In this document: piece after piece, positions 20,697 through 46,836 of the stretch
Layout of the letters: each line of letters begins with the position of its first letter
Numbering within the stretch: the first letter of the stretch is position 1
Assembly: GCA_963575745.1 (NCBI GenBank)
Contig: CAUYUJ010020170.1
Location: 716,513-780,512, forward strand
Direction: 5' to 3'
From: Prorocentrum cordatum
Lineage: Eukaryota > Sar > Dinophyceae > Prorocentrales > Prorocentraceae
Length of the DNA stretch: 64,000 bases
The notes under the pieces: model-generated
What the model was told of the DNA's origin: nothing
Databases searched by the model: none
What the model saw: the letters and a program-made list of their open reading frames with translations, nothing else
Position numbers and translations under genes: made by a program

Positions 20697-20722
20697 CTTG
20701 GATGGCCGCGGCGGTTGCTAAG
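20697..20722 (+). repeat. Left terminal inverted repeat
   Basis: Begins CTTGGATGGCCGCGGCGG. It pairs with the reverse complement of 46811-46836 with two mismatches. Confidence 0.75.
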
Positions 20723-20945
20723 TACTTAACATACATACTACGCTAAGTTAAGCACTTAGTAAGTAGTTAGCGGACTCAGCTAAGTACTTACTCAGTCATT
20801 ACTAAGTGGCCCACTTAGTAATGACTTAGTAAGTACTTAGCTATCCACTTATAGCCAGTTAGCTAAGTGCTTAGCGCACTTAGCTAACCATTTATAACCA
20901 CTTATAGCTAGTTTGCTAAGTAGGTTATAAGTGACTTAGCGGTTA
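20723..20945 (+). repeat. Left sub-terminal AT-rich repeats
   Basis: Many overlapping CTTAGTAAGT, TAAGTACTTAG and GCTAAGTGCTTAGC words, several of them palindromic. They could bind an element-encoded protein, as sub-terminal repeats of CACTA elements do. That role is inferred. Confidence 0.7.
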
Positions 20946-21023
20946 CATTGCACTTGTTATCCAAGGGCCATGCACAGGGAAAGAAGGTAAATCCACGTCT
21001 TGAAAGAGCTGAGTTTGTTCGTT

Positions 21024-21595
21024 GAGCGCTGCAGCGCTACAAATTTTGCATTTTGATTTGGAGTCGGTGTCCTGGATTTTTGCTTTAAATATGAGAAGCG
21101 CTGCAGCGCTGCCTTCGGATTTATATGAACATGAAGCGCTGCGTGCGCTGAAGATGAAGCGCTGCAGCGCTGAATGTTGAGTTAAATGCATGTTTTCTAG
21201 TTGCACGTTGTTCGGATCTTCATTTTCGCCCAGCTCCGTTTGCAAGGAATTTGAATGCACATGTCAATTATGTTTTGTTGTATTCGTTGTTTTTTCAATG
21301 GTCGCATTGAGCGCTGCAGCGCTCCAAATTTGATAGCGCGTATGTTACTTTGCGCTGCAGCGCAAAAAGATGGTTGTCGTCGTGATGTCGCATCGCGCTG
21401 CAGCGCGTGCGCGCTCGTGCTTCATGGGCCTCGGGCTGCAGCCCAGATCAACATTTTTGCTCGCAAGTTGCATGTCCATGTAGGTCGATGTTCACGCGCA
21501 CGCCGCGCGACAGCTTGTCTCAAGCTGCGGCCGCGCGCCGCATCCGCCGTCGCGCCCGCGGGCTCGCACGTTGCATTCGGCGCTATATATAGCGC
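21024..21595 (+). promoter_or_regulatory. Palindrome cluster upstream of the first element gene
   Basis: Seven palindromes with core GCTGCAGC lie in about 420 bp: AGCGCTGCAGCGCT at 21025, 21097 and 21158, then 16- and 18-bp versions at 21309 and 21349, CGCGCTGCAGCGCG at 21394 and GGGCTGCAGCCC at 21433. A variant with a different centre, GCGCTATATATAGCGC, is at 21580-21595, five bases before the chosen ATG. The position suggests a promoter or 5' leader, but a regulatory role is inference only. Confidence 0.4.
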
Positions 21596-21599
21596 TGGC

Positions 21600-24505
21600 A
21601 TGGCGCTGCAGGCGCGTCAGGAGGAGCAGATCTTGCAGTACATCGAGGAAAGCAATGCCTCGGGGAGGTCGGCATCGGGGCGGGGTCAACTGAAGGAGTT
21701 CCTGCTGGCGGAGGGGCAAGCGTATTACCAGCAGGTCCCACCGAACCAGATGGGCATCGACATTCGGAACCGCAGCGGTTCGTTAGTGAACCCTGCGCGG
21801 GCTCACAATTTAGGCGCGAAGATTTGCGCCCAGGGCTTCGTCTTGGCCAAGACGGCTGCAGCCACTGCCTTCGAGGCCCCGCAGGGGGCGCAGTTGGAAG
21901 AGACCGCGATGGCGAACGACCGCCTTTCGCGGCTCAGCGGGGGTCGGTGCCCCCCGCTGGACTCATTGCGGTATACGTCAGTGGGCGGCTCCCACACGAA
22001 CGTCTTCCTCCGCTGCGTGCTGGCCAAGGCGCCGACCACAGTGAAGGCGCTGGCAGACTCTCGGGACAACATCGACTCCGAAAAGCTGTGCGCGTTGCAT
22101 CCGCAACTTGCGACGGCAGTCAAAAAGGGCCTGACGTGGTTGATCATCAAGCACGCGGTGGCCAAAGTGAAGGGCCTCAAGAACTTCGTGCAGAGGGCTT
22201 TGAACGCCGACGTCAGGGGGGCGGTTCACGAGACCGAGATCATTCGGTCAGGCTGCAGCCTATCCCCACTGTAGTATATAGCGGTATGTAGTAAGGACCA
22301 GGATGATGCACGAGGAGGGTGATGAGTGGGAGTGCGTTGGGGAGGAGGTGAGAACGAGGAGCAGGAGCATCATGCCTTACCGTGCTGCAGCACTTGATCG
22401 GCTCGGCGCTTGCTGCAGGCAGGTGGGCGGATGCTCTTGGCACGCAGCCTCGCTGAGGGTTCCAGCAAGCCCGATTGGCGCGACATCGCCGAGCAAGCGG
22501 GCCACGCGAACCCACCTTGCAAGGCGTGGATCGCTGACTTGTGCAAGTTTGTTGAGCTCGGGCCACAAAACGGAGAACTTCTCCGTGAAATAGATGAAGC
22601 CCTCAAGACCTTCACGAATGTGGACGTCTCGGGGCAAACTTTGATGTGCGGCTCTGAATTCTGGCGCAAGTTGAATTCGATTAAATGGGGGAAGCACCAG
22701 GAGTCGTACCCGTATGTCGTAGCGGCGCTCGTGAAGGCCAACTATTCAGGCGAGCACGTGGTGGATAGCATGTGCAGGACCATCCATAAGCTTGTCGGCG
22801 CCCCCTTGTAGTGACATGCGCTGCAGCGCATCTACGCATTGCGCTGCATTGTTAGAACTGCGTACCCACCCCTCCCCCCTCCCCACGCACACACGCACAC
22901 CGTTACATTGCTTCATTCCCAAACGCAATCGCTGAAGCGATGGGCGGATCAAGGCAAACGAGATCGTCCACGTCGCGCCCCGCAAGGCGGACGTGGCTGC
23001 GGCCGACAACCTCATGGCCGACGCAAGGTCGCTCGTGAAGAGGTTGGGTATCGGAGCGGAGCAGGGCTTCTTGCACATCACAAAGTTGGATGTCCGCTGT
23101 GCCATGCACCTGGTGAAGAAGCGAGCGCCAGGAGACCGCACTTTCGGATGCGTAGCATATATAGCACAGGTATCTTCTCATGCCACCTTTCGTGTGTTCC
23201 TTGTTTCCCTCCCTCCCTGCTTTTCGCCATTCAATGTCGCTGCAGCGACCCTCCAGAGAGGTCTTCCTCCATGAGCTCGGGGAGCCAGCCCAGCTGCAGA
23301 TGAAGAGCTCGGGGATCGAGTTCGGCAAGGCGGCGCAGACCGACAAGCAAGGCGATGGCGCACCCGAGTTCCCAGCGAGCGCCGATGCAGACGCGCCGCG
23401 CGCGGCAGCGTCGTCGGCCGCTGAGTTGAAGAGCAACGTCTTCCGCAGGCGGCGTGCAGGGTTCGACGTGGGGAAGCACATCGTCCAGAAGAGGGAGGTG
23501 GATGACGTCCTCGAGGTGTTCTCCATCTCGGAGAATGGGATCACCGCTCAGAAGAAGTTGCACGGCGACCTGGTGGGCGAAGAGATCTCCATTGCGTGGC
23601 TGCAGCCACCCCGCCGCCCGTGGGGAGCAGGGAGGGGGGAGGGGGAGGTAGTAACTGCGATATTGTATTTCCTGTACTTAAGTTGCAATGGGTTGGTCGA
23701 TGCGCTGCAGCGCACGGAGCAGTTAGCCGAGCGGGCGGATTGAAGTAAACATATTGCTCGAGAATTACAAGTTGACGTCCAGGGTGCAAGAGCAGTTGTC
23801 GTTCACGAGGGAGCACTTGCCGCCAGCCCACGAGGGTTGGGCGATGGACGCGTTCAAGGGGGCATGCAACATAGCGCCGCGGCTCCAAGCGCTGAAGTAC
23901 CAGGCGAACATTTCGCACTTGGAGATCCTGCAGGACCCACCTGCCGCGCGCTGCAAGCGAGCGTTCAAAGTGGGTGAGCTCGTCAGACTTGTGCTTCCGC
24001 AATCGTCCGCGCCCCCCTCCGACGACGCCGCGCTGCAGCGCTGCGCTGAGCACGAGGCAGCGAGGATTTCGGGGCACGTCAGGCCGTAGCGACGAGGTCA
24101 GTGATGTTACCGACTGCGCGCCATGTAGCTCCACGCGGTGGGAGTGGTCGCATTTCGGCCTCGTCCACGCGGGTCAGCACGGGCTGCGTTGCGGAGAGCA
24201 TCTCGTTGGGGAAGGTTGGCCTCTACGAGTTCTTCGTGGGCCCGCATTTCGCAGGGCCCCCCGCTGAGGGGTCGCGGGGCCCCGACGCCTGTGTCAGCCC
24301 CTTCTGGGTGGTGGCAAAGTCCGACTCAGAGCCCAACATGGAGCTCCGAAAGGAGACCGTGACGTTCGGGACAGGCGTCAACAAGGTGCAGGTGGGGGTG
24401 CCCCAGATGCATAACACTTGCGCCCTGTCCGCGGGCGACTTCCTGGTGGTGAAGCCGTGGCCGCGGCTGCAGCCGCGGCCAGCCAAGAAGCTCAGGACGG
24501 CCTGA
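21600..24505 (+). CDS. Spliced gene of a dinoflagellate-expanded unknown family
   Basis: Exon 1 starts at ATG 21600 (MALQARQEEQILQYIEES) and runs to about 22255; it includes VPPNQMGIDIRNRSGSLV, GGSHTNVFLRC and KKGLTWLIIKHAV. Exon 2 is about 22419-22807 (GSEFWRKLNSIKWGKHQES). Exon 3 is 22938-23169 (EIVHVAPRKADVAAADNL). Exon 4 is 23246 to about 23647. Exon 5 runs from about 23727 (LLENYKLTSRVQEQL). Exon 6 ends at the stop 24503-24505 (CVSPFWVVAKSDSEPNMEL). Introns 2 (22808-22937) and 3 (23170-23245) are GT-AG with matching phase; the other borders are approximate. The exons follow the order of a family I know from dinoflagellates (QMGIHPxNR, GSHxNxFLRC, LDVR, PFWxV...NME), whose function is unknown. 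It is the first gene inside the 26-kb element. A 24-bp palindrome lies in its last codons (24458-24481). Confidence 0.6.
22808..22937 (+). other. Intron with palindromic 3' splice site
   Basis: Begins GTAGTG and ends ATCGCTGAAG, with the exon starting CGAT. Intron tail and exon start form a dyad with arms ATCGCT/AGCGAT. Exon 2 leaves two codon bases and exon 3 supplies one, so the phase fits. The intron also contains a 16-bp GCTGCAGC palindrome near 22815 and a pyrimidine run. Confidence 0.6.
23170..23245 (+). other. Intron with palindromic 3' splice site
   Basis: 76 bp, begins GTATCT and ends GTCGCTGCAG, with the exon starting CGAC. Together these form the perfect 14-bp palindrome GTCGCTGCAGCGAC with the splice site after CAG. 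Both sides are phase 0. A CTTGTTTCCCTCCCTCC pyrimidine tract precedes it. Confidence 0.65.
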
Positions 24506-26277: not shown

Positions 26278-26631
26278 ATGGCTGCCAACATGAGTGCAGC
26301 GACGCCGCCATGGCGGCTTCCCTCGGAGCCAGTGCCGCCGCCGAAGGCGAAGTCCGCTGCATCGGATGCGACACATGCGGCTACTCCCCCTCCTCCGCCG
26401 CCGCCGCCGCCACCACCGCCTCCGACGTCGACGAGGGCCGCGGCTGCAGCCGCCAGTGATGTGCCAGCCCCGCGCGCGGCTGCAGCCGCGCGCAAGCGCG
26501 ATGCTGAGACCAAGGTTGGCATGTGGAAGCTTGTGCGCGACATGATTCGGGAAGCGCTTCAGCGCGGGGACCGCGAGACAGCGGTTGCGCCGGCAGTCCA
26601 ATGCCACGTCGCGAAGAAGCCGCGCAAGTGA
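26278..26631 (+). CDS. Small basic Pro/Ala-rich protein
   Basis: 117 codons from ATG 26278 (MAANMSAATPPWRLPSEPVP) to TGA. A run of 13 Pro (about residues 41-53) is followed by Ala-rich stretches and then a predicted helix, VGMWKLVRDMIREALQRGD. It ends KKPRK, a possible nuclear-localisation tail. The Ala runs come from GCC-rich palindromic DNA (a 22-bp GCTGCAGC palindrome at 26472-26493). An upstream in-frame start exists at 26173. No family recognised; it may be one exon of a longer gene. Confidence 0.35.
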   Translation: MAANMSAATPPWRLPSEPVPPPKAKSAASDATHAATPPPPPPPPPPPPPTSTRAAAAAASDVPAPRAAAAARKRDAETKVGMWKLVRDMIREALQRGDRETAVAPAVQCHVAKKPRK

Positions 26632-27713: not shown

Positions 27714-28265
27714 ATGGCGTCGCAGCTCGACTACGACGAGGACGCCGAGGAGTTCGCCGTCCTGCGGCCGACGCCGCCTGCGGTGCCGCCGCCAGGGTTC
27801 GAGCCGTGGGACCCCGCGGTCGAGCTCGCTGCCGCCAAGGCGCGGCCGACGTCGCGCGCCGCCCCGCACGGCAAGGGCGGCAGCGACGGCCCACCTTGCA
27901 AGGGCAAGGGCAAGGGCAAGGACAAGGACAAGGACAACGTCGGCGGCCCACCTTGCGGCAAGGGCAAGGGCAAGGACAAGGGCGGCGGCGGCCCACCTTG
28001 CAAGGGCAAGGACAAGAGCAAGGGCGGCAAGGGCAAGCTTGTCCGCGACGGGGACCAGCAGCAGCGGCGTGGCGGCTGGTTCAATCGGGCGCAGCAGCTC
28101 TGCGAGCTGCTGCTGCAGGGCGAGTGCGCCGACGCGGCCGCCCTCGCGGAGGAGTTCTACGCTGGGCCTGCACAGGTCTGGGTCGGCGCTGGCGCCGAGG
28201 AGGCCGCCGAGGGGGCGCAGGCGCCCGAGGGGGCGCTGTGGAGGCCGCCGAGGGGCGCCTCATGA
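27714..28265 (+). CDS. Lys/Gly-repeat protein
   Basis: 183 codons from ATG 27714 (MASQLDYDEDAEEFAVL). The N-terminal third is acidic and Pro-rich (RPTPPAVPPPGFEPWDPAV). The middle has three GGPPC/DGPPC motifs, each followed by KGKGKGKDKD-type repeats (about residues 57-110). The C-terminal part is helical, with GGWFNRAQQLCELLLQGEC and ALAEEFYAGPAQVW. The basic repeat would bind nucleic acid or acidic partners; that is inferred from composition only. The frame is open further upstream, so the start is a choice. No family recognised with confidence. It lies on the + strand inside the element. Confidence 0.4.
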   Translation: MASQLDYDEDAEEFAVLRPTPPAVPPPGFEPWDPAVELAAAKARPTSRAAPHGKGGSDGPPCKGKGKGKDKDKDNVGGPPCGKGKGKDKGGGGPPCKGKDKSKGGKGKLVRDGDQQQRRGGWFNRAQQLCELLLQGECADAAALAEEFYAGPAQVWVGAGAEEAAEGAQAPEGALWRPPRGAS

Positions 28266-30481: not shown

Positions 30482-32330
30482 ATGTCTGCCGCGGCTGCGG
30501 CCACACCCATCAACCACATCCTGGATAACCTGGACAGCTGCGACGCTTCCTTCGCATCGCAGATCGGCGTCATCGCCGCCGACGCGATGGCGCAGAGCCA
30601 GTCCGCCTTGTCCATGAGCGTGCAGCTGCAGCTTCGCAACTTGGGGACGATCGGGGCTGCCCAAGCAGCTACCCTGCAGAATCGAATCACCGCGTCGGGC
30701 TTCGCGGACAGCCACAAGGCGCGCCTCAGCGCCGCGCTGGCCGCGCGCGTGGGCACGGCGACGCCCGCGCTCCAGATGCGCGTGCAGACGCTCGCGTCAG
30801 GGCGGTGCTAGCCATCGTGCTTTGCACATCGGACCGCCGAAGTGTTATTCACATGTATGGTTTAATTGTTTGTTCTGTACTGTATGTATGTTACCATGTT
30901 CATGTTTCAAATGTACTTATGTTATCATGCTGCAGCATGCCTGCGTCGATTCGTCGGCTGGTGGACTTTACCATGCAGGACTGGGGTTTATTTCGCGACC
31001 CCAGCCAGAGCATCGTCGCGAAGGTGCGCGCGTTGATCAAACGTTGCGGTGCCATCGGCTTGACGGTTCCGAGCGAGAACACGCTGAAAGAGTTGGCGGC
31101 GTTGATGGCATGCGCCCATCTTCCAGACGCAAACCCTGGGCAGCTCTACGGGATCGTGACGGAGATGAAGGTTTGGGATTCGGCGGGAACGCCTAACGCA
31201 GACGCATCGCATCGCACTGACTGCAGCCAATGCGATGCGGCGCGTCAGCGTTAGGGTTTCCCGACGAGTCGCCCTTTACAGGGTCAGTTCTTGGCGAGCC
31301 GCAGGGGCGCGACGGGGCAAGCGGCGACAGTGACTTGGAATTTCCCAGCAGATCCTCGGCAGCTCCCTCAGCACATCTTCGACGCGGCGTACACCGATGC
31401 GGACCCGCCGATCGATGTGACGCGCGACCTCGCTAACGTGGCATCGCATCTACGAGGCTGCTGCCACCCCGTCATGCGCTGCAGCGCTGATTGTTCTCGA
31501 TGTCTTGGGTGCTTCGGTGAGCTCGGTCCTTTAGGTCCAACTCGCACAGAGCATGATAGGTTTCATGCTACGCGTGCGCCGCTGAAGCGGCCTGCGGGTC
31601 TCAACGCCATCAAGGCTCGCGTGCCTCTCAGGCTGACCAACAAGGGCTTGCGGGCTGCCGCCCCACCGCATCAGCCGAGCACTGCCATTGTGCCATGGAC
31701 ACCATCGGGGTCACCCTCCGTGCCGCCTGCAGCGCCAGTGCAACCCATGGACTGCAGCAAATGCTGGCAGCGTTTGCGCCACCGCCATCGCCGCCCAACG
31801 AGCTGCAGCTGCAGCTCTTCCCGCGCCGCCCTGCGGCGCCCACGGCGAGCCCCCCCGCGAGCCCCCCCGCGATTGGCGATTCGCCAGCTGGGCCAGCATT
31901 GCCAGCGGCGGCGCCAGATGCTGCTGCAGCAGCGCCAACGCCGCCAAACGAAGATGCTGCTGCAGCAGCAGACGGAGACGAGGATGCTGTGCTGCAGGCG
32001 ATCGAGACCTTGGCTGCGGGCAGCGCGAAAGGCGAGCTGCCTCGCAAGGGCAAGGGCAAGGGCAAGGGCAAGAAGGGCAAGGGCAAGAGCGCGAGCAAGG
32101 GCAAGAGCAAGACAGGCGCTGGCAAGGGCAAGACGGCGGCCAAGGGCACGGCCAAACCGAAGGCCAAGGGCAAAGGGAAGGCCAAAGCCAAGGCCAAGGC
32201 CAAGCCCAAGGGCAAGGAGGCAGCCAAACGGGGCCAAATGGCACTCGGGTGCAGCAAATGCCGCTACCTGCCGAATGGCTGCGGCACGTGCCGCGACCCG
32301 AACTTCACTGGCCGTCGCGGCAAGCCGTGA
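30482..32330 (+). CDS. Spliced gene, unknown family with K-rich tail and CxxC motif
   Basis: Exon 1 30482-30804 (MSAAAAATPINHILDNLDSC); intron 30805-30935. Exon 2 30936-31170 (MPASIRRLVDFTMQDWGLF, GLTVPSENTLKELAALM); intron 31171-31281. Exon 3 31282-31437 (TWNFPADPRQLPQHIFDAAY); intron 31438-31587. Exon 4 starts at 31588 (RPAGLNAIKARVPLRLTNKG). All three introns are GT-AG with matching phase. Between 31700 and 31770 the frame changes, by a very short intron or an indel. The last part (to TGA 32328-32330) has Pro/Ala runs, about 80 residues of KGKGK/AKAKA repeats and ends CSKCRYLPNGCGTCRDPNF. The order WGL..., GLxxPSExT, fPxdPxxLP..f..aY, Lys-rich tail, CxxCR...GCxxCR is one I know from a dinoflagellate-specific family of unknown role. 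The CxxC pairs could bind zinc. Confidence 0.6.
30805..30935 (+). other. Intron with palindromic 3' splice site
   Basis: 131 bp, begins GTGCTA, ends CATGCTGCAG with the exon starting CATG; together a perfect 14-bp palindrome. Exon 1 ends with two codon bases and exon 2 supplies one. Confidence 0.65.
31438..31587 (+). other. Intron with palindromic 3' splice site
   Basis: 150 bp, begins GTGGCA, ends GCCGCTGAAG with the exon starting CGGC. The dyad arms are GCCGCT/AGCGGC. Phase 0 on both sides. A TGCGCTGCAGCGC palindrome lies mid-intron near 31475. Confidence 0.6.
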
Positions 32331-32339
32331 GCGCGCAAC

Positions 32340-32755
32340 GGGCACTGTCGGCATATGGAGGTGAGGATGAGGATTATGAGGGCGAGGAGGAGGATGGGGA
32401 GGATGATGAGGAGGATGAGCATGTGGAGGAGAAGGAATGAGGAGGATGGTGAGGATTAGTGCGAGGTTGGATGGAACGCTGGCCGATGATATGAACGGGC
32501 TGCAAAGGGCTGTGGCCTCCGCCGGCGCGCGAACCTGTCGTAACTTCAATGGGACTGCGGCCTGGGGAGCGCGTGCCTGGCGTAAGCTGCTCGGGAGCGC
32601 TGCCTCGGGAGCGCGAGCCTGGCGCAACGTGCAAACGGCCTCCTCCTCCTCCTCCTCCTCCTCCTCTCCTCCTCCTCCTCCTCCTCCTCCTCCCTCCTCC
32701 TCCTCCTCCTCCTCCTCCTCCTCCTCCTCCTCCTCCTCCTCCTCCTCCTCCGCCT
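32340..32755 (+). repeat. GAGGATGAGGA tract, GGCCTCGGGAGCGCGAG units and (CCT)n
   Basis: Purine tract 32360-32455. Units like CCTCGGGAGCGCGAGCCTGG at about 32545-32630. (CTC)n 32640-32753. The unit family recurs at 32757-32880, 33470, 33766, 34130-34195 and as an array at 60.0-60.3 kb. Confidence 0.8.
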
Positions 32756-32756
32756 A

Positions 32757-32890
32757 GTGGCCTCGGAGGCGCGAGCCTGGCACCACGTAGGGAGCGGCGG
32801 CGGCCTCGGGAGCGCGAAGCTGCGGCACTTCACCGGGGACCGTGGCCTCGGGGCGCGCGGGCCTGGCACAAGCGTCTGGTTTCGGGGGTT
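32757..32890 (+). repeat. GGCCTCGGGAGCGCGA-type units
   Basis: Three diverged copies, each followed by C(C/T)TGGCA or CTGCGGCA. On the minus strand such units give ARAPEA-like peptides, which are artefacts. Confidence 0.7.
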
Positions 32891-33310
32891 GGACAGACCT
32901 CCTACCCTGGCACGTCGACTAAGGAATTGGCCGTTTTCGGTTCGCGAGAGGGCGTCGCGGCCGATATTTTTGCGGGTCCAGGTCCGTCGGTTTCGGTCCC
33001 AGGCCGTTTTTCACTAAGGGGAGGTCTACTAAAGGGAGGTTTGTCCACCGCCGATGGTTGGCCCAGAAGGGAGCCGGGCGAACAGAGGGCGGTGCGATAG
33101 ATCTGGTGCAGTAGATCTGTGGGGTTGCAGTGGATTTGGGGCGTGCAGTACATTCCGGTGCGCAAAGGCATTGCTGGAGTTTCGCGTGCAGCGCAGTAGC
33201 TGCAACACAGTACGATACAAGTCTCAGGCGCAGCACATTTGCAGTACAATTGCCCCAAATCTATTGCACCACGCACTTTCAACGGGACCCCCTTTCGGGT
33301 CAACCAAAAA
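32891..33310. other. Unassigned spacer
   Basis: No gene recognised. AT content rises slightly after 33100. Confidence 0.35.
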
Positions 33311-33454: not shown

Positions 33455-33517
33455 ATTTCGAGGGGATGCAGCCTCGGGAGCGCCGGCCTGTTGTCATTCA
33501 CACAGGACTGGCGTTAA

Positions 33518-34209: not shown

Positions 34210-34375
34210 CCCAGACGTGATCGCGTCGTAAGAAAAAGTCAGGCTGGGAGGGTTTTGCCAGTTTTCGGCCTCGGGAGGCCCTCGCTGGGTCGCGGGGCCG
34301 TGAAAAACAATTCAGGACGGAAAACCGGCCCCGGGGAAAGGGCGGGGTCTTCAGGGACTCCGCATTGAAAAAATC
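34210..34375 (+). repeat. Dispersed GACGATTTTTGACAGTTTTC-type repeat
   Basis: Contains GCCAGTTTTCGGCCTCGGGA, then GCGGGGCCGTGAAAAAC and CCGGCCCCGGGGAAAGG. Diverged copies form an array at 39.82-40.52 kb. Confidence 0.6.
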
Positions 34376-34534
34376 AGGACGTCGCATGTCTGGGAATGCC
34401 CCAGGGCCCGTAGAGACATGTGATTATGCTGTGGTTAGCGATTGCTTCTCGGGCTCTCCGCCCTGCGCGGGACTTCCATCACTGCAACCATGGATTGAGA
34501 AAGAGGGAGCCTACAACGTGAACTGGGAACTTAG

Positions 34535-34641
34535 GGAGCCACATGCGAACCCTACCCCCTACCCCCCACGATTTCTGAGGGGGAGGGTGGGGTTCACATC
34601 AGAAATCGTGGGGGGCAGGGGTAGGGTTCGCATATGGTCCC
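34535..34641. mobile_element. Hairpin element, about 43-bp arms
   Basis: Left arm 34535-34577 contains CATGCGAACCCTACCCCCTA and CCACGATTTCTGA. Right arm 34599-34641 contains TCAGAAATCGTGG and TAGGGTTCGCATATGG. Near-perfect complement, with a loop of about 20 bp. No gene. Confidence 0.8.
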
Positions 34642-35334
34642 CTAGAACTGGAGCTGCTGCAGGGAACGGGAACACCTGTGGCTCGCAGCCTATCGGCCCT
34701 CAAAGGGGGCTGGCTGATTTGGGCGTCCCAGGGGCCCTCGAAGGCCTCCCCGGAGGCCTCTGGAGATTCGGGGCTCCGAAGATCCAGGGCTCTCACGAGG
34801 ACGCGAAGTTATTCGCGCTTCGCTGTCCTCGTTCCTTCTCCCCCTCCTCCTCGTCCTCCTTTTCTCCCTTTGGCGGGGCGGCGCGAGAGCGAAGTTATTC
34901 GCGCTTCTTCCCTAGGGATCGCCCTAGACCCGAGCTGGAGGGCCAGAACCCCGCCAGGGCCAAGAAAACGCCTGAGATTTGGGCTTGGTGGCCTTCGTTC
35001 CATACCTCGGCTCTCCGGCATGGCAGCCTTCCGGGACCACCCGGGCACCTCCGGAACGCCCTCGACGAGGCAGAGCCGGAGGACGCGTGATGGGGGAGCG
35101 AGAACGGGGGGCAGCGAGGGCTGCAGGAAGGGGCCTTTTCCCGTTGGGGCCACTATAGAGGGGGCCCTCCTGGGGCCCAGAGAGGAGCCCCCCAGGGCCC
35201 CAGACGTGCACCTTTTTCTCGAGGCCGGGGGATTGTGGAGTCCCTGTGGGTTTCAGACGATTTTTTACGATCTTTCACGTTGCTCATCATTATTCTGATA
35301 TTTCCTCTCTCGCGTTCTCTCTCTCTCTCTCTCT
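34642..35334. other. GC-rich spacer with a repeat shared with 63.7 kb
   Basis: 34799-34912 matches 63674-63787. It starts and ends with GCGAAGTTATTCGCGCTTC, itself a short hairpin, and holds TCCTTCTCCCCCTCCTCCTC between. The rest is unassigned. Confidence 0.6.
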
Positions 35335-37695
35335 CAATCTCTCCCACTCCCATTCCCATTCCCATTCCATTCCCATTCCCAATACCATTACCATTCCCAT
35401 CCCCATTCCCATTCACATTACCATTACCTTTAGCTTTATCTTTACCTTTACCTTTACGATTACCATTACCATTGCAAAGGCCATTACAATTGCCATTGTC
35501 ATTGCCATTGACACTCCCATTGCCATTGCCATTGCCTCCACTGCCGTTGCCATTGCCATTGTATTGCCATTGCCAGTCGCCACCCCGTTACCATTACCAT
35601 TACCATTACCATTACCATTCCCAGTACCATTCCCAGTACCATTAGCCACTACCATTACCATTTCCATTACCATTAGCATTACCAACACCATTGTCATTGC
35701 CATTGCCATTACCATTACCATTACCATTACCATTACCATTACCGCTGCCATCACCATTACAATTCCCATTCCCATCACCATTGCCATTACCATGACCGTT
35801 ACCAGTACCATTTCAATTACCATTACCATTACCATTGCCATTATCATTACCACTACTACTACCATTTCCATTCCCGTTCCCGTTCCAATTACCACTACGA
35901 TCCCCATTCCCATCCCCATTACCATTACCATTACCATTACCATGACCATGACCATGACCATTACCATTACCATTGCCATGGCCATTGCTATTGCCATTGC
36001 CATTGCCGTTGCCATTCCCATTGCCATTGCCATTACCATTACCATTGCCATCGCCGTTGCCATTGCAATTGCCAGTCGCTACCCCGTTACCATTGCCATA
36101 AACATTACCATTACCGTTACCGTCACCATTACCATTCCCAGTACCATTACCATTACCACTGTCATTGCCATTACCATTACCATTGCCATTGCCATTGCCA
36201 TTCGCCACTACCATTACCATTACCATTCGCCACTACCGTTACCATTGCCATTGCCATTGCCATTCGCCACTACCATGACCTTTGCCAGTACCATTACCAT
36301 TCCGATTCACATTCCCATTCCCAATGCCATTACCATTACCATTACCATTACCATTACCATTACAACTGCCATTGCCATTAGCATTACCATTATTTTTACC
36401 TCTACCTTTACCCTTACCCTTACCATTCCCATTTCCGTTACCACTACCATTGCCATTTCCATTCCCGTTCCCATTCCCATTCACATTCCCATTCCCGTTC
36501 CCGTTCCCATTCACATTACCATTACCATTACCATTACCATTGGGCCATTACCATTGCCATTCCCATTGCCATTGCCATTACCATTACCGTTGTCATTGTC
36601 ATTGTCATTGCCATTGCCAGTCGCTACCCCGTTACCACTATCATTACCGTCACCATTACCAGTACCATTACCATTACCTCTGCCATTACCATCACTATTC
36701 GCATTGCCATTGCCATTGCCATTAGCCACTACCATTACCATTGCCAGTACCATTTCCATTGCCACTCCCATTCCCATGACCATTACCATTACCATTACCA
36801 TTATCATTTCCATTACCATCACCATTACCATTACCTTTACCTCTACCTTTACCTTTACCCTTACCCTTATCATTCCCATTTCCGTTGCCACTGCCACTAC
36901 CAGTTCCATTCCCGTTCCCGTTCCCATTCACATTCCCATTCCCGTTCCCATGCCCATTACCATTGCCATTACCATTACACTTACCATTGCCGTTGCCATT
37001 GCCATGGCCATTATCATTGTCATTGCCATTGCCATTGCCAATTCCATTGCCATTACCATTACCGTTGCCATTGTCAATGTCATTGCCATTGCCAATCGCT
37101 ACCCCGTTACCATTACCATTACCTCTGTCATTACCATTGCCATTCGCATTGCCATTGCCATTGCCATTCGCCACTACCATTACCATTGCCAGTACCATTT
37201 CCATTGCCATCACCATTACCATTACCATTACCATTGCCAGTACCGTTACCGTTACCATTACCATTACCGTTGCCATTACCATGAGAATTCCCATTCTCAT
37301 TTCCATTCCCAATACCATTACCATTTCCATTACCATTACCAGTGCCATTACCATTACCACTACCACTATCATTTCCATTCCCGTTCCCATTCCCACTCCC
37401 ATTCCCATTACCATTACCATTACCATTACCATTACCACTGCCATTGCCATTATCATTACCATTACCTTTACCTCTACCTTTACCTTTACTCTGACCATTA
37501 CCATTGCCATGGCCATTACCATTGCCATTGCCATTGCCATTACCATTACCTTTGCCATTGCCATTGTCATTGCCTCGCTACCCCGTTACCACTATCATGA
37601 CCGTAACCATTACCAGTACCATTACCATTACCACTGTCATAACCATTACCATTACCATTGCCATTGCCATTGCCATTGCCATTGCCATTGCCATT
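35335..37695 (+). repeat. 2.36-kb CCATTA/CCATTG satellite with 0.5-kb units
   Basis: Nearly every hexamer is CCATTA, CCATTG or a one-base variant. The word CGCTACCCCGTTACC (or CGCCACC...) recurs at about 35582, 36081, 36626, 37101 and 37580, giving five units of 475-545 bp. All frames are open over long distances because the hexamer has no stop on this strand, so the long Thr/Ile and Pro/Leu frames are artefacts. Confidence 0.95.
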
Positions 37696-37857
37696 GCAAT
37701 TCGAGGATTTCAGTAGGAATCATTCAGTGGAGGGTTTCAGTGGGAATCCACATGTGGAGGATTTCAATAGGAATCATTCAGTGGAGGGTTTCGATAGGAA
37801 CCCTTCTGTCGAGGATTTCACTGTGAATCCTTCTTATGGGGGCGTCCAATAGGAATC
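37696..37857 (+). repeat. 30-bp minisatellite, frame-preserving
   Basis: Five units of GAGGATTTCAGTAGGAATCA type. In one + frame they read EDFSRNHSV, EGFSGNPHV, EDFNRNHSV, EGFDRNPSV, EDFTVNPSY. The 30-bp length keeps the frame. Whether it is translated is unknown. Confidence 0.8.
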
Positions 37858-37904
37858 CTTCTAGGGGGGAGGGCAGATGTGGCCACGTCGCATTCCTTTT
37901 TTTT

Positions 37905-37985
37905 TCTCCTGGCGTCCCCCCCCTTTCCCAGAGAAAAAAATAACTTTTTTTTTTTGCTGGGGGGGGGACGCCAAGAGAGAAAAAA
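37905..37985. repeat. Hairpin with poly-A/T centre
   Basis: TCTCCTGGCGTCCCCCCC on the left and GGGGGGGGACGCCAAGAGAG on the right are complementary with one mismatch. The centre holds A8 and T13 runs. Confidence 0.75.
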
Positions 37986-38204
37986 AAGAAGGCAGAGAGG
38001 TAGGAGGAGGGGGAGAGGGAGCGTCCCTCTCCAGGAGGACGATTCGAAAGTGGTCAAAAGAGAGGCTGGGGACGGCGTTGGACTGTCGTCGGCTGTCTTC
38101 GAACATGTGTCTGACTGCTTCGAAGAATCAGGGGCTCGAGCCTTGGCTCAACGAGTTCAGGTCGAGCCGTGCCCGCACCCCCCTCTCGCAGAGCTGCGCT
38201 CGAG

Positions 38205-38792
38205 ATGTGGGCGCCGGCCCTGCTCCTCCTGCTCCTCGCCGCGCCGGCCCTTGCGGGCGGCAGCGGCGGCGCGGGGGCCGCCTGCGCCGAGGGCGAGGAG
38301 GAGGAGGCGCACGCCCTGCTGCAGACTGCCGGGCAGAGCGGTGGAGCCGGCGCAGGCGTGGCTGCCACTGGCGACCCCCGCCTTCAGGACGCTCTTGGCC
38401 AGCGGTTCGACTTGACGAAGCCAGGGAAGCATGATCTGATTACCGCGAACGCCCAGGGCACTTTCGATTACGAGTCGAAGCAACCGAACCTCAGTCTTTT
38501 TTCCGTACCGTGTCGTGGCCCCAGCTCTGTCTACAATGATAATTGCTGTTTGGGAGATAACTTCAGGGACAAATGTGAAGCATGCATGTGCGCCGGCTTT
38601 GACGCGACATTGTGGTGCAACCGGGACCAGGACCCATTCCCAGGCTGCAATCACGACGGCCAGTGTGGGACAAGCAGCGGGTGCTTCAAATTATTGCCTG
38701 AAGGTTCACCATGTGTGGAGGCTTTGCAGTGCTATCACCACCCACGTTACATCGGCGGGTGCGATTTCAAAGGAGAGTGCACACCTTTTTGA
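38205..38792 (+). CDS. Predicted secreted cysteine-rich protein
   Basis: 195 codons from ATG 38205 to TGA. MWAPALLLLLLAAPALAGG is a clear signal peptide with cleavage likely after ALA (about residue 17). The next 40 residues are Gly/Ala/Glu-rich. DPRLQDALGQRFDL and PGKHDLI (about residues 54-75) match a motif (DPxLxNxxGQRFDxxxPGxHxLI) I know from many dinoflagellate secreted proteins. The C-terminal half has 14 Cys (NDNCCLGDNFRDKCEACMCA, HDGQCGTSSGCFKLL, SPCVEALQC, CDFKGEC), typical of a disulphide-rich domain. ATG 38205 is preferred over in-frame codons upstream because it starts the signal peptide. The role outside the cell is unknown. It lacks GCTGCAGC-bearing introns, unlike the spliced element genes around it. 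Confidence 0.7.
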   Translation: MWAPALLLLLLAAPALAGGSGGAGAACAEGEEEEAHALLQTAGQSGGAGAGVAATGDPRLQDALGQRFDLTKPGKHDLITANAQGTFDYESKQPNLSLFSVPCRGPSSVYNDNCCLGDNFRDKCEACMCAGFDATLWCNRDQDPFPGCNHDGQCGTSSGCFKLLPEGSPCVEALQCYHHPRYIGGCDFKGECTPF

Positions 38793-39142
38793 GCATGATT
38801 AGTCGCTTCCTCTCGTCTTGCAATGTCTGGTCTCTGCAGCGCGGCATTCAGTGCAGCTTACCTTTCGTCTGTAACCTTCGTTTCGGATGCAATATCTTAT
38901 GATAGCATTCGTGCAGCTTACCTGACGGCTGCCCTACTTTCAGATGCAAGTGACCAGGCTCCGGCCCGCCCGCGCCGCCCCTAAGGGGCCTGCCGGCGGC
39001 CGGCGGACTCGCGCGTCTGCGTCTGCGTTATCACAACCTGCAAGGCCAGGCCGGAGTCCGTGAGCATCTTTTAATGGCAGTGCGAAGCCGCCAAGCAGCA
39101 TCAGTCATTTCCTCTCGTCTTGCAACGTCCTTCCTGCCTGCC
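38793..39142. other. 3' flank with short direct repeats
   Basis: GTGCAGCTTACCT occurs at about 38852 and 38911, each followed by a GTTTCGGATGCAA- or CTTTCAGATGCAA-like word. CATTTCCTCTCGTCTTGCAA occurs near 39107, with a related CGCTTCCTCTCGTCTTGCAA near 38804. No further gene. Confidence 0.5.
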
Positions 39143-39387
39143 CTCCTCCCCCTCCTCCTCCTCCTCCTCCTCCTCCTCCTCCTCCTCGTTCCACATGAAG
39201 ACCTGGTCAGCTCCCCGCCAGGCGTTTTCCCACAATCGGGGAAGCACGCGAGACCTTCTGAGAGTTATCGGTTAAACTCTCACCACAGTTTTGAAGACCT
39301 GGTCAGCTCCCCGCCAGGCGTTTTTCCGCAATCGGGGAAGCATGCGAGACCTTCTGAGAGTTATCCGTTAAATTCTCAGCATTCGTG
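39143..39387 (+). repeat. (CCT)n and a 96-bp tandem duplication
   Basis: (CTC)n 39143-39187. Then GAAGACCTGGTCAGCTCCCC begins at 39197 and again at 39293, with units of about 96 bp differing at a handful of sites. Confidence 0.9.
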
Positions 39388-39399
39388 AAAAAAAACAGG

Positions 39400-39460
39400 G
39401 GCTCGAGCCTCGAGCTTCGAGGCTCGAGGCTCGAGGTTCGAGGCGGCTTTTCATTGTTTT

Positions 39461-39550
<90 letters not shown>
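39400..39550 (+). repeat. CTCGAG palindromic repeats, GTCGGC and GTC arrays
   Basis: GGCTCGAGCCTCGAGCTTCG-type repeats 39400-39445, about eight GTCGGC units and about twelve GTC units 39463-39547. Confidence 0.9.
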
Positions 39551-39551
<1 letters not shown>

Positions 39552-40660
39552 CGACCGCCCACGACGGCGCTGGCGGCCCACCACTGCCAGCGGGCGCGGG
39601 CGCGGCCGGGGCCACTACGCCGGAGGCCCGCGGCCAGAGTTTCCAAAGCTCTCCGCGCCGCTTTGGACACCCAGGGCCCCCTGGGCCACGGGAGGGGCGC
39701 TCCTGAGGCCATTCTGACCTCCCTGGAACTCTTGGGGACACCTTCGGCCAGGGACGCCCTTGGCAAAGCCCGAAGGAGAGAGCGGGCGCGGGCGCGGCCG
39801 GCTCCGCCACCTCGGGTCACGAACCCAGACGCGATCGCGGCGCAAGAAAAAAGCGTCGCGACGGGAGGTTTTTGGCCGTTGGGTCCGGGGGGCCCTCGCC
39901 GGGCCTCGGGGCCGTCAAGAAGCGACTCGGGGCGAAGAGCCGGTCACGGGGAAAGGGTCGGGGCTTCCAGGGACCGAGCATTGATCCTGCCTTTTTTCGG
40001 GCCCTATATAGGACCCGCACTCGAAGCGCCGCAGGGGCTCCGGGCGCGGTTGTCTGCGATGTTGAAGTTTTTTCGCCACGTTGGACCTCCGGGTCGGGTC
40101 ATGAAGAACTCACGGCGGACGATTTTTGACAGTTTTCAGCCTTTGGCGGCCCCCGCCGGATTCCAGGATCGTCAAAAAACGGCTTGGGATGACAAGCCCG
40201 GCCCTGGGGAGACTTGGGCCGGGTGTTGCCAGGAGCGCCCCTGGCCCGAGGTGCCAAGGCGCCCCCAGGGGTTCCAAGGAGGCCCCCGCGGCCTCCAGAA
40301 GAAGGCCCCCTCACGAGGCCCAGGGGCCCCGACCCAGAGATCCGACGTCGTGATTTTTTCCATACGGGGTCCCCGGAAGTCTGCACCCATTCCCCAGGAC
40401 CGGTTTTTCACCCTGACTTGTTTTTTGACCGTCCTTGGGCCCGGCGACGGCCCCTAGAGGCCGAAAATTGTGAAACAAATCCGTCTTGATTTTTTTCAAG
40501 ACGTTGGATCTCTGGGGAGGGGCATCCAAAACGGAGGGGGCGCCTTGGGCCAGGGGCACCTCTCTGGCAGCCCCCGACGCTGGGGTTCGACGTTGCGAGA
40601 AAGTCGCGACGTCGGGGGAGTCTGGGGCCGTCCCCCGGGGTTCCGAGGGCGTGTGTCTTT
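39551..40660 (+). repeat. Array of diverged GTTTTCGGCC / CCAAGG repeats
   Basis: Blocks with TTTTTGGCCGTTGG, TTTTTGACAGTTTTCAGCC or GTGAAACAAATCC, each followed by GGCCCC-type sequence and GTCAAGAAGCGACTCGGGG-like text, recur at about 39860, 40115 and 40440. Between them are CCCAGGGG-rich stretches. One partial copy is at 34.2 kb. No gene. Confidence 0.6.
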
Positions 40661-40715
40661 TGGGCCTCCTCCTCCTCCTCCTCCTCCTCCTGCTCCTCCT
40701 CCTCCTCCGCCCATT
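40661..40715 (+). repeat. (CCT)n microsatellite
   Basis: CTCCTCCTCCTC repeats with one TGC. Confidence 0.9.
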
Positions 40716-41431
40716 TCAGTGGCTATTCCGCAAGGCTGCCCCCCTTGCCCTCCAGAGTATGACGGCATCTTTCGTGTGGGCCTGAATGCCGACACATTGG
40801 ACGGCGCGACCTCGTTGTGGCTCCAGCGTGCTGCTGGAGAGGTGTTGGGTCTTCACCATATGGACGTTTCCAATGGACGTTGTGTCGCGCGGCTCGCACG
40901 GACGACGAGGAGGATGAAAGTCAAATATGTTGACGGGTTCTCTTGGATGCGGGCGCTGCAGCGCTGGCGCCTTTGTGTTCAACGTTTGCATCGCCATCAT
41001 GATCACGATGCAGCGCTGCAGCGCCCGCTTTCCTGGATGGTGGCGTAGATATTGCGTGCTGTTGTGTTCCGATGCAGCGCTGCAGCGCCTGTCAGACTTG
41101 TGGTACCGTTGTAGCGTTGGCGCGTTTGTGAGTGTGCAGTTGCAGCCGCGGTGTCCATGTATTGCGTGACGTGCTCGTCTTGAGTGCCAGTCGTTTCTCG
41201 TCGATACGCGCTGCAGCGCCAGCATTCGTGATATCGAGCGTTGTCTCCCGCATGGTTGTTGCCAAGTCACGCGCTGCAGCGCTGTGATTCGCTCATGTTG
41301 CGCGTTGCCGATGGCATGCCCTCCTCCCCCTCCTCCTCCTCCTCCTCACTTGGCTCGCGCGTCGCAGCCGCCATCGTTCGCTGCAGCGGGTGCTGGCAAC
41401 GGACCTCCTCCGCCTCCTCACTGGGCTCGCA
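40716..41431 (+). promoter_or_regulatory. Leader region with palindromes before the transposase-like gene
   Basis: GCGCTGCAGCGC-type palindromes near 40959, 41010, 41073, 41208 and 41271, then a CTCCTCCTCCTC run and CCGCTGCAGCGGG near 41381. Upstream exons or a promoter are possible; neither can be shown. Confidence 0.35.
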
Positions 41432-44400
41432 ATGGCGGCGCGCCGCTGCGACAAGCCGTTCGAAGCGCAAGCGCGCGCCGACCGTCGCGACGAGTTGCGC
41501 GAGGCCCGCGCGAGAGCGACGGCGACTGCTACAGCAGAGGTGAAGGAGGCGCGGAAGAACGCCAGGAAAGCGGAGAAGCAGGTGCAGATCCGCACCGCGG
41601 AGCTGCAGGTGGATGAGGAGGCGGATGAGAAGGAGGACGGTGGGGTTCATGAGTGTGGCAGGCTACTCCCCCGCTGCAGCGGGGGAGAAGGACGACAGGG
41701 GGGATGATCAGGAGGAGGTGGAAGGCGATGATGTGGGAGGATGAGGAGTATGAGTAGCAGGGTCGGGGTCAGATGGGCATCGCCGCTTCGGACGTGGCCA
41801 ACCAGAAACTCAACGAGGCGTTGACCTCGCTGCGGAACGCCAAGAAGATGAAGGTGACCTGAGTGAGGTCGGCCTCGGCGACCGCCTGCTGAAGCATGCT
41901 GGTTCGATTGATTGGTAAAGGCTGGAGGGAGCGTGGTTGAGCGTGTTGTTTGAGTTGCGCTGCAGCGCTTCTCCGTGGACCACGGTTGAAAGTTTGCGCG
42001 CGGATCATGATGTGTTAATGTGTTGCGCTGCAGCGCAGTTTCGCTTGCAGTTTCTCGTTGGATGGTAATGTGGCGGATGATGAGGGCGAGTGGTATTGAT
42101 GCTGTTGACGATGAAGGTGATGGTGACGGGGATGATGAAGGGACGGGAGACGGATGATGATGAGGATGGGTGGGTTGAGGAGGAGGATGGGGAGGACGAG
42201 GGGGCGCATGAGGGGGAGGAGGAGGAGGAGGAGGAGGAGGAGGAGGAGGAGGAGGGGGTATAGGAGGGGGAGGAAGAGGAGGAGGACGAGGGGGATGGCG
42301 AGCAGGATGGAGGAGGAGGAGGACGTTCGCGCTGCAGCGCGTCAGATTGTCATCATTGAACGTTAGCGGCGCTGTAGCGCCATGTGCTCCCAGACTGATG
42401 CTTGGCAGTTGGCGCTGCAGCGCGCATTTGGTTGCTCTCCACGCGGTGCAGCCTCATTTCCATCCGTAGTCGCCGTGGCCCCTAGCGGAGGGGCCCCTCC
42501 GCGCGCGCGCAGCGACGGAGGCGAGCTTGCCTCGGGAACGCGCGCGATGGCGGCAGAGGACGACCGCCCAGGGAAGCTGCGGCGGCTGTCCCGCCTTCGC
42601 GCGGGACTGCCATTCATGCAGTGTAATGCGATGGCGCAATTCCTGGCGTCCGTTAAGCGAGACGGAATCCCCGAATTGGGATCCCGACGCCAGGATATCA
42701 GAGACGATCGGGAGCTCATGGTCGGTGAGAACACGCCGTGCGGCAAGCTCCACCAGAACATGATAGTCGGGCAGCGCACGGTGGAGATCTGCAGTCCAGC
42801 AGCAATGCTGTGGTATTGCAGCGCCCTCCCCGCGACGCAGCCTCTGTGGCAGCGGGCGCTGGAGCTGCCACGCCCGTGGCACATCATCATTTACGGCGAT
42901 GAAATAGGCGCTGGCAACGCGCTGGCGCACGTGCAGAACCGCAAGTCCTGGGGCATCTACTGGGCGATCGCGGAATTCGGCCCGCAGGCGCTTTCGTCGG
43001 AGGACTTTCGCGATAGCGTTGCTGCAGCAACGATATATGCGGGGGGGGAGGGGGGTAGAGAGAGAGAGAGAGAGGCGCTGCAGCGCCAGTTGTGCTGCGA
43101 TTTGTTCGCAGGATGCGTGGTTCCAGCTCGCGACGACGCGGGCCAAGACCGCGAACGACATCCAGCCGCACGGACTGCCGATGCTATTGGACGCAATCCT
43201 CGCGCAGTTCTGGCCTGATCAGGGGCGCAACTTCAGCGCAGGCATCAGCTTGCGGCTGCGCCCCGACGGCGCGACGGAGCTCATCCAGATGGACCTCGGA
43301 ATTTACATGCAGCCGCTGCAGCGGTCGCCGCATAGCACCCAAGATTAGTTAGCATACATGTGCACATGTATATATCCATTACGCCTTCTTGCGTCGCTGC
43401 AGCGGCTCTGTCGGATCGCGGACGAGGATGCAATACACCGCTTGATCGGAATGAAAGGTTCGTCAGGAATCAAACCATGTTTTATGTGCCGCAACGTGTT
43501 CTTGAAGGGCGAAGTTCGGGATATAGTTGCTTCTGATGCGACGGGTGTCGCTGTTCACCACTCGGAACCAGATGCGTCGCGGCTGCAGCCGATGACGGCG
43601 CCGTTGCTCGATGCCATCTGCAACAGATTGATCGAAGGGGTCAACATCATGAACAAGGGCGAGTTCCAGGAGTTGGAGCGCCGACTTGGCTGGAACTGGG
43701 ACCCCCATTTGCCTGAGCGGGTTCGGAAACTCAAGCCGCTCGAGACAGTCATGTTTGATTGGATGCATTGTATTTTCGTCAACGGTACATATAACATTCT
43801 GGTGTTCCAAATGTTTCGAAGGTTGAAGGGTTACTGGGCGCGCGCAGGCGCATATTTCCAGGACTGGTCGTTTCCAGGGTGCCACTCCATCTCCCCCGAC
43901 ACGTACGCGATCTTCGGCGAGAAGCGCGTGAGGTCCCACGTTGGCAGCAAGCATTTCAAGTGTACCGCCAGCGAGGGGCTCACAACCATGCAAGTATCAT
44001 TGCATGCTTCGCGCCCCCGCCAGACCAATAATACATGCGCTGCAGCGCACGGGAATTTCTGTAGGATATGTACTGCACCCCTCTTGTTCGGACATGCGTT
44101 CGCGCGGGCGGATTGACGTGTTTCTTCAGGGAGGTGGCTAGCGACGCTGCAGCGCCTGCAGTCCGATCGGCTCGCGCAGTGTTCGAGGCGCACACGATCG
44201 TTGTGGAAGAAATCCTACGAGCATCCAGGCGTCAGGCAGACGCGGATAAGCTGCAGGCTGCGGTTAACAGGTTTTTGTTGTCATACAGCAGCGTCTGTGG
44301 CAAGGAAACGATGGCGCAGAAGTTCCACTACCTGCGCCACTTCGCCAACTACGCGAGGCGTTGGGGCCATGTGGCGCTGCCGTCGTGCTGGGTTTTGGAG

Positions 44401-44961
44401 CGCAAGCACAAGACCAGCAAGCGCTTTGCGAACGCTCTTCAGGTGGGGGCTGCAGCCTCCAGCGGCTGGGACGCCAATGTCCTGAAGAGCGTCACCGAGC
44501 GGCACCTGTGGCAGCTCATGGGTGGCGGCACTTTTAAGGTTAACTGCCTGGTTAACGCCACCAGGCCGTCCAAGGCCATCTCGCGCGAACTACTGCAGCA
44601 GTTCGGGCTTGCGGACTTTGTTACGTCCGCTGCAGCGCGGTGCCGCTACCACGACGTCAAATACGGCGACGTCGTGCTGTTGGAGGACGGAGGAGGGGAA
44701 CACATTGCGGCCGAGGTGTTGAAACACCTCTCCTCCGCCAAGAACGGCCACTACTATGGCTTGAGCTTGGTCCTGCCCTACTTCTTCAAGGAGAAGCTGC
44801 ACCCGCGCGCCTCCGCGCACGTGCTTGGCGGCGATGCCGACGCCTTCTGGGCGCACACGGCGAGCATCGTGTGCTCGCTCGCGTGGGCGCCGCGCGAGGG
44901 CGGCGGCATCCGAGCGGCGCGCCCGATATGGTCGCAGCCGCGGTGGTGCGCTTTAGCTTAA
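41432..44961 (+). CDS. Spliced transposase-like gene (DWMH family)
   Basis: Exons: 41432-41608 (coiled coil, KEARKNARKAEKQVQIRTAE), 41773-41853, 42421-43017, 43112 to about 43342, about 43403-43993, and 44065-44961. Most joins are GT-AG and phase 0; the 43343-43402 intron needs a non-GT donor. Motifs in order: RPWHIIIYGDEIGAGNALAH, SWGIYWAIAEFGPQALSSED, MKGSSGIKPCFMCRN (Cys pair), VMFDWMHCIFVNGTYN, TASEGL, QKFHYLRHFANYARRW, CWVLERKHKTSKRFA. This order is a family I know as highly expanded in dinoflagellates, and it resembles tnp2-type (En/Spm, CACTA) transposases in its DxMH and FHxxxH...ExxxK blocks. The D/E of YGDE and the D of DWMH are candidate metal ligands. It would cut and join the element's ends. 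The first two exons are less certain. Confidence 0.6.
41609..41772 (+). other. Intron with 22-bp palindrome
   Basis: Begins GTGGATG after CTGCAG and ends GGGGTCAG. A perfect 22-bp palindrome centred on GCTGCAGC lies at 41666-41687 with arms of C/G runs. Phase 0. Confidence 0.45.
41854..42420 (+). other. Long intron with palindromic 3' splice site
   Basis: Begins GTGACC and ends GGCGCTGCAG with the exon starting CGCGC. It holds a GGA tract (42160-42320) and further GCTGCAGC palindromes near 41957, 42024 and 42330. Phase 0 on both sides. Confidence 0.45.
43018..43111 (+). other. 94-bp intron starting with a palindrome
   Basis: The donor side is GTTGCTGCAGCAAC, a perfect palindrome beginning at the first intron base. 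A G/GA tract follows, then GGCGCTGCAGCGCC and the acceptor TTCGCAG. Phase 0. Joining the exons gives EDFRDS-DAWFQLA, which fits the family. Confidence 0.6.
43994..44064 (+). other. 71-bp intron with internal palindrome
   Basis: Begins GTATCA after CAA and ends TTTCTGTAG. TGCGCTGCAGCGCA lies in the middle near 44037. Phase 0. Confidence 0.5.
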
Positions 44962-45478: not shown

Positions 45479-45510
<32 letters not shown>

Positions 45511-45860: not shown

Positions 45861-46243
45861 CTCGGGATCGCCATCGAAAAACATATCAAGACATGTTTTT
45901 CGATGGCGACCCCGAGCCATGGGGCAGTCTCCTCTCGGAGGACCCCTCGGGGATGTCGGGGATCCTCCTCGACATCCCCGAGGGGTGGGACGGGCTCGGC
46001 AGCCATCGGCCCGTCGCACGTCGTCGTCCCCCAACCCTCTGGGTTGTGGACGACGGCTACGTGCGGTGGGCCGCTCTGGCTGCCGAGCGGCGCGCGGGGC
46101 CCCCCCGCCGCCCGCGCCAGCGGCAATGCCGCTGGAGATGGCGGCGCAGAGCGCGGCGCAGGCGAACTTCGCCTGCGCCGCGCTCAGCCGCGCCAGGCTG
46201 CCGCTCGACGCGGCGGCCCTGCAGGGCCGCCGCGTCGAGCGGC
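45861..46243. repeat. Six consecutive hairpins and palindromes
   Basis: H1 45861-45916: 24-bp arms, one mismatch, 8-base loop. H2 45942-45986: perfect 17-bp arms. H3 about 45994-46087: imperfect arms of about 43-47 bp around TCT. H4 46117-46135: 9-bp arms, 1-base loop. H5 46150-46184: perfect 17-bp arms, 1-base loop. H6 46200-46243: perfect 44-bp palindrome centred on CTGCAG. The block lies between complementary GGA and CCT tracts. No coding function is evident. Confidence 0.85.
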
Positions 46244-46274
46244 CGTCTTGGGCTGAGGCGCGCCCGTCGCCGCC

Positions 46275-46460
46275 TCCGCCGCCGCCTCCCCCTTTCCTCC
46301 TCCTCCTCATCCTCCTCCCCGTCCTCCTCCTACTCCTCCTCCTCCTCGACATCTCCTCCTCCTTCTCCTCCTCCTCCTCCTTCTCCTCCTCCTCCTCTCT
46401 CCCCCTCCTCTTCCTCCTCCTCCTCCTCCTCCTCTTCCTCCTCCTCCTCCTCCTCCTCAG
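46275..46460 (+). repeat. (CCT)n tract
   Basis: CTCCTC repeats with TTCTC and CGACAT interruptions; complementary to 45353-45780. Confidence 0.9.
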
Positions 46461-46810
46461 AGTCCGCTAACCACTTAGTAAGTCCGCTAACCACTTAGTA
46501 AGTAAGCTAGCTAGCGGACTTACTATGTGGTTACTAAGTGGTTAGTAAGTGGTTACTGGGTGGTTACTAAGTGGCAGCTAAGTGGTTACTAAGTGGTTAG
46601 TAAGTGGTAGCTAGAGTGGGGACTTAGCGAGCTAACCTCTACTAGAGACTTAGCAAGGTTAGCCTCCAGCTATAAGTGGTTAGTATCTCCTACTAACCAG
46701 TTGTAGCTGGTTATACAATTTACATCCTACTTACAACACTTATAACCGACTTACAACTCACTTGTACGTACATACTAAATCCTCTAACCCCTTAGTATCC
46801 GCGCTAACCG
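46461..46810 (+). repeat. Right sub-terminal AT-rich repeats
   Basis: CCGCTAACCACTTAGTAAG occurs twice in tandem, then many TAAGTGGTTAGTAAG and ACTTAC words, declining toward 46800. It shares words with the left sub-terminal array. Confidence 0.75.
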
Positions 46811-46836
46811 CCTAGCAGCCGCCGCGGCCATCCAAG
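46811..46836 (-). repeat. Right terminal inverted repeat
   Basis: Ends CCGCCGCGGCCATCCAAG, the reverse complement of the left end with two mismatches over 26 bp. Confidence 0.75.

Follow-up and report, generated by a model that had tools for sequence, protein, structure and literature searches.

A DNA transposon of about 18 kb, very probably of the RAG1/Transib/CACTA clade, in the dinoflagellate Prorocentrum cordatum

The window analysed here is a 64,000-nucleotide stretch of the Prorocentrum cordatum genome (assembly GCA_963575745.1, contig CAUYUJ010020170.1, positions 716,513 to 780,512), and positions 20697..46836 within it are very probably one copy of an autonomous-type cut-and-paste DNA transposon that is natively about 18 kb long, belongs to the RAG1/Transib/CACTA (CMCT) clade and has many similar copies in Prorocentrum. 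An earlier note on this DNA had delimited the element correctly and had read it as a single transposon with terminal inverted repeats (TIRs) and a transposase gene near its right end, but had taken 26.1 kb as its own size, whereas four other copies measure about 18 kb; the window copy is longer because unrelated DNA of 8.4 kb landed inside it. The note could name no element type, and the element can now be placed with the RAG1/Transib/CACTA-type (CMCT) transposases, with ends other than CA.

The borders were described in the same note as near-identical inverted ends, matching AT-rich repeats just inside both, and outer flanks that together rebuild one interrupted array unit, and each of these descriptions holds. 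The first positions of the two ends agree at 24 of 26, and the exact sequence CTTGGATGGCCGCGGCGG occurs in the window only at 20697-20714 (+) and 46819-46836 (-); with up to 3 mismatches it has 3 matches against 0.14 expected, a number reached in 1 of 100 shuffles. ACTTAGTAAGT words (at most 1 mismatch, both strands) have 10 matches, all within the two ends, while 0.11 are expected and 0 of 100 shuffles reached 10. Aligned as inverted repeats, the sub-terminal regions score 138 against a maximum of 53 in 200 shuffles, a value qualified by the score of 114 obtained in direct orientation, because these repeats occur in both orientations. The left flank ends in TACACATT and the right flank starts with TTGTTCTTTTGAAAA, and in the intact units of the array, at 20263 and 20477, the sequence is TACACATTTTTCTTTTGAAAA. 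The right flank aligns to the array unit with a score of 106 (maximum 45 at 2000 random window positions), and joining the flanks minus one TT gives a junction in register with a single T-to-G difference; within the T run at this junction, alignments dropping 0-2 bp score nearly equally.

In the organism's own assembly (4.13 Gb, 21,875 contigs), the exact 18-nucleotide TIR has 92 forward and 100 reverse matches, and the control has 0 and 0; inverted terminal repeats and many dispersed copies are both features of cut-and-paste elements with TIRs. Pairing, a search that the earlier note had proposed, took in 100 of these 192 places, the window's own pair not among them, and joined each + place to the next place on the same contig if that was a - place within 60 kb. 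It gave 32 pairs with a median spacing of 18.0 kb: three at 13.3-16.4 kb, 24 at 17.5-18.5 kb, one at 19.7 kb and four at 29-44 kb. Flanks were compared at 16 pairs selected from these, 14 spaced at about 18 kb and the other two at 40 and 44 kb; in 15 the two bases before the element recur directly after it (TA 5, CA 5, TG 4, AA 1), and the remaining pair is flanked by TG and CA. The last three bases before and the first three after the element are identical in 0 of the 16, and the third base is not duplicated; the target duplication thus has a fixed length of 2 bp, TT in the window. Four complete copies on three other contigs each align to window positions 20697-32498 and 40884-46836, the copy on C12711 in the opposite direction, and their aligned blocks are 86.7-98.6% identical with gaps counted, the lower values including simple-repeat tracts. 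On C825 (155308-194881; L018-L021, L030-L033) two same-direction copies stand 3.8 kb apart with a right flank in common; they probably arose by tandem duplication, not by two independent insertions.

The transposase gene, which the earlier note had recognized near the right end, carries D-D-C2C-H3H-E residues, as do its relatives, and so agrees with the definition of the CMCT clade (EnSpm, Mirage, Chapaev, Transib, Plavaka and RAG1) given in PMC12730594: a catalytic triad D, D, E in which C(2)C and H(3-4)H lie between the last two residues. These residues are conserved; which of them are catalytic is a candidate assignment from sequence. The predicted model of a relative (P0020) has a RAG1/Transib-like fold and a BAH fold, and the C-terminal part of the window protein aligns to the BAH-like domain of the relatives; a search with an earlier structure model (pLDDT 55.8) had already returned RAG1 and BAH chains. 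A search with the joined exons matched 13 proteins, five of them P. cordatum gene models, and a profile search matched 55, mostly unnamed metagenome proteins and, more weakly, one from Durusdinium trenchii (the 8000 best candidates were scored in each search). No Pfam transposase family matched the 14 members of A1 at E <=1, and none was among the 25 families listed, of 30, for the 60 members of A4; a few members match single families (HHH or HHL1-like, for example), and these matches are taken as fused or misjoined sequence or as chance. The exons are 97-99% identical between copies and free of internal stops in all four other copies, a single gap standing in exon 2 of one of them, and from the comparison of genes between copies the transposase is therefore among the best kept.

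Features of 5-bp target duplications and CAC ends characterize Transib, and the chromatin reader of the RAG system is a PHD finger located in RAG2, a second protein. The element differs from RAG1, ProtoRAG (BbRAGL) and Transib in its 2-bp duplications and its CTTGG ends (CTT in place of CAC), and from the RAG system in having a BAH-like domain fused to the transposase itself; no sequence match between its transposase and RAG1, ProtoRAG or Transib was detected. The 2-bp duplication lies within the 2-5 bp of the CMCT clade, whose termini are 5'-CA..TG-3' "in most cases", whereas the window element ends in 5'-CT..AG-3'; the 16 other pairs, selected by their exact CT..AG end, add only that the duplication abuts this end. 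Starship, Polinton and Teratorn elements are likewise large, multi-gene and mobile, but none of the selected ORFs (open reading frames) scanned in Pfam matched a recombinase, integrase, polymerase or viral family, and the element has about 18 kb without its insert.

That the element is a true CACTA/EnSpm transposon whose ends are unusual, and no lineage of its own, is a narrower version of the same explanation and not its opposite, and it has somewhat less than an even chance. Sub-terminal repeats at both ends are typical of CACTA, and the element has them, together with a second large gene beside the transposase. Its size and number of ORFs recall the enlarged EnSpm families of 16-20 kb with 4-5 ORFs reported for the red alga Chondrus crispus in PMC6431247, and its short target duplication agrees with what PMC12730594 gives. 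Both enlarged EnSpm elements with several ORFs and transposons of RAG1 type are already known. EnSpm/CACTA proper has CAC..GTG ends and 3-bp duplications, while this element has CT..AG ends, 2-bp duplications and no Pfam transposase match, and it is by ends, duplications and Pfam, not by direct comparison of sequence or structure with CACTA, that it is set apart. Neither the BAH fusion, the CTTGG ends nor this dinoflagellate lineage was met with among the titles and abstract beginnings listed in searches of the open-licence literature.

It is very improbable that the whole 26.1 kb, including a block with a secreted-protein-like ORF, is a giant transposon moving host cargo as a unit. With intact ends on both sides it could in principle move whole, and both of the long pairs examined (among the four of 29-44 kb) have 2-bp duplications, but the block is missing from the four copies on three other contigs, with junctions placed by exact anchors in three of the four and by BLAST ends in all. 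The block also holds 0 of the TGCA-centred palindromes of at least 10 bp that number 77 in the core, and its repeats are common to the window flanks: repeat sharing, considered before the copies were compared (10 matches between the region at 32.5-40.8 kb and the window flanks, against one for each core half, low-complexity matches left out), suggests host-type DNA. The block was rejected as host cargo of the native element because the four other copies are without it, and the ORF near 38.2 kb is therefore not shown to be cargo of the element. Within the block, a CCATTA-type hexamer array of 2.3 kb occupies 35350-37695, and the Cys-rich ORF at 38205-38792 has a signal-peptide-like start (by eye) and no Pfam match.

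The earlier note had named unpaired termini as evidence that would count against the element, and here the outcome is divided, with 32 pairs in its favour and 36 of the 100 listed ends lacking an exact partner by the pair rule, a figure that pools ends near contig borders, ends whose partner has decayed and true single ends, and that weighs against a paired element. A chance arrangement, with ordinary DNA happening to lie between two independent small elements or solo ends, is the reading which these unpaired ends would favour; it was nevertheless rejected and has almost no credibility, given the rebuilt array unit, the nearly fixed pair distance of about 18 kb with 2-bp duplications elsewhere, and the sequence between the ends that four copies have in common. 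A viral and a prokaryotic origin were also rejected: tblastn confirmed none of 33 pattern stretches in viral_contigs and none of 19 in genome_contigs. One viral contig (L001) has an exact TIR without sub-terminal words, taken as a chance match.

For the cut-and-paste transposon thus preferred, a course of movement can be proposed. The RAG1-like DDE transposase with its C-terminal BAH-like domain would bind the CTTGG ends, and the sub-terminal ACTTAGTAAGT repeats would probably assist as further binding sites, as in CACTA. The element would be excised and then reinserted, mostly at TA, CA or TG, duplicating 2 bp of the target, and the BAH-like domain may steer insertion or sense chromatin state; dinoflagellate nuclei are known for unusual chromatin. 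The window copy would first have entered a unit of the 214-bp array, and the 8.4 kb of host-type DNA would have been inserted later.

The core of the element (window 20697-32498 and 40884-46836) contains GCTGCAGC-centred palindromes throughout, and their outer arms covary. The 77 TGCA-centred palindromes of at least 10 bp compare with an expectation of 4.8 under a Markov model of order 3, the highest count in 200 simulations being 12, and 0.5 are expected in the inserted block. Outside the element there are 7 in 26.5 kb (1.9 expected, largest simulation 7; the 4.7-16.0-kb array left out), in ten other genome stretches 1 in 15 kb (956 bases N), and in element flanks 4 in 9.6 kb. Fully complementary 3-bp arms are present at 35 of 72 GCTGCAGC sites and comprise 15 different arms; permutation gives 4.8 such sites, and at most 12 in 2000 runs. 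Palindromes differ between copies by 1.0%, as against 2.2% for sequence 30 bp away. No compensating change was found in 308 site-by-copy cells (291 unchanged, 14 broken, 3 gapped), and the covariation of the arms is therefore older than these copies or not maintained.

Palindromes also stand at or near the ends of the inferred transposase introns (43003-43111, 43310-43414 and 43994-44133), which are partly non-canonical: one is GA..AG, one GT..AG, and one lacks GT/AG at the junction suggested by relatives. The introns of P. cordatum are reported in PMC10666404 to be enriched in introner elements, and palindromic intron ends are described for Amoebophrya in PMC7789003. The transposase introns resemble dinoflagellate introners in this respect; the element differs in having palindromes also in inferred exons (19, against 58 in the rest of the core) and in non-coding stretches, with a GCTGCAGC centre and variable complementary arms. 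Introns bearing inverted repeats account for the palindromes in part, but not for the exon sites. A further reading is tentative and rated as possible rather than probable: that the element represents a separate RAG1-type lineage, recently active in a dinoflagellate, in which a DDE enzyme has its own BAH chromatin-reading domain, the element being an assembly of several genes over 18 kb that has CTTGG ends and makes 2-bp duplications, and in which the GCTGCAGC palindromes are a working part (hairpins or protein sites) and not debris.

Table 1. Coordinates of the element and its features in the window.
Feature	Position	Strand	Remarks
Left target duplication, TT	20695..20696	.	duplication of 2 bp also at 15 of the 16 other pairs compared
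Left TIR, CTTGGATGGCCGCGGCGG	20697..20714	+	exact match; longer comparison agrees at 24 of 26 positions
Left sub-terminal AT-rich repeats, ACTTAGTAAGT-type, both orientations	20715..20955	.	limits by eye
Gene A, about 785 amino acids, six inferred exons	21600..24505	+	exons open in one of four copies
Gene A exons (approximate)	21600-22250, 22428-22790, 22950-23172, 23250-23600, 23745-24080, 24104-24505	+	inferred
ORF B, 254 amino acids	25003..25767	+	in all four copies; gaps and stops in three
ORF C, 117 amino acids, low complexity	26278..26631	+	open in all four copies
ORF D, Lys/Gly-repeat protein	27716..28264	+	variable between copies
Gene E, several exons, uncertain boundaries	30482..32330	+	Cys-rich CSKC..GCGTC tail at end
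Secondary insertion, 8,385 bp	32499..40883	.	missing from four other copies, which have 24 bp there
Transposase gene	42547..44961	+	inferred exons 42547-43002, 43112-43309, 43415-43993, 44134-44961
Translation stretch of 30 amino acids	46123..46212	+	identical in P. cordatum P0004 (exact string)
Right sub-terminal AT-rich repeats	46460..46818	.	limits by eye
Right TIR	46819..46836	-	exact CTTGGATGGCCGCGGCGG
Right target duplication, TT	46837..46838	.	flank comparison

The other genes of the element are less uniform between copies. A single distant relative is known for gene A (P0063, 26% identity, 98% coverage), and the exons of gene A are present in all four copies; all six are open in e825a, while one exon has gaps in e12711, a gap and a stop in e1, and a gap and stops in e825b. 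ORF B has no family match and ORF C only a Pfam match below the cut-off (E 0.011). The first exon of gene E is open in all four copies; its last exon has gaps and a stop in all four, read in the window's frame, and ORF D likewise differs by gaps in all four. Rfam gave 0 matches at gathering cut-offs. The 30-amino-acid stretch belongs to inverted repeats and may represent a more widespread repeat; in P0004 it stands downstream of another transposase copy, a match that tblastn did not return. Elsewhere in the window, an imperfect GAC-rich array of 11.3 kb (4709-16017) has a strong A-over-T skew of about 0.8 on the + strand and is open over 825 codons in one reading frame.

The element adds a branch, without a Pfam family and with a fused BAH-like domain, to the transposases that gave rise to RAG1, the enzyme by which human antibody genes are rearranged. 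This branch is seen in Prorocentrum and in many metagenome proteins, and more weakly in Durusdinium. The identity of the transposase exons and the intact target duplications suggest recent movement, and they make a test of activity practical. In the RAG system, too, cutting is coupled to a chromatin reader, there on a second protein, and the BAH fusion would be an independent solution to such a coupling.
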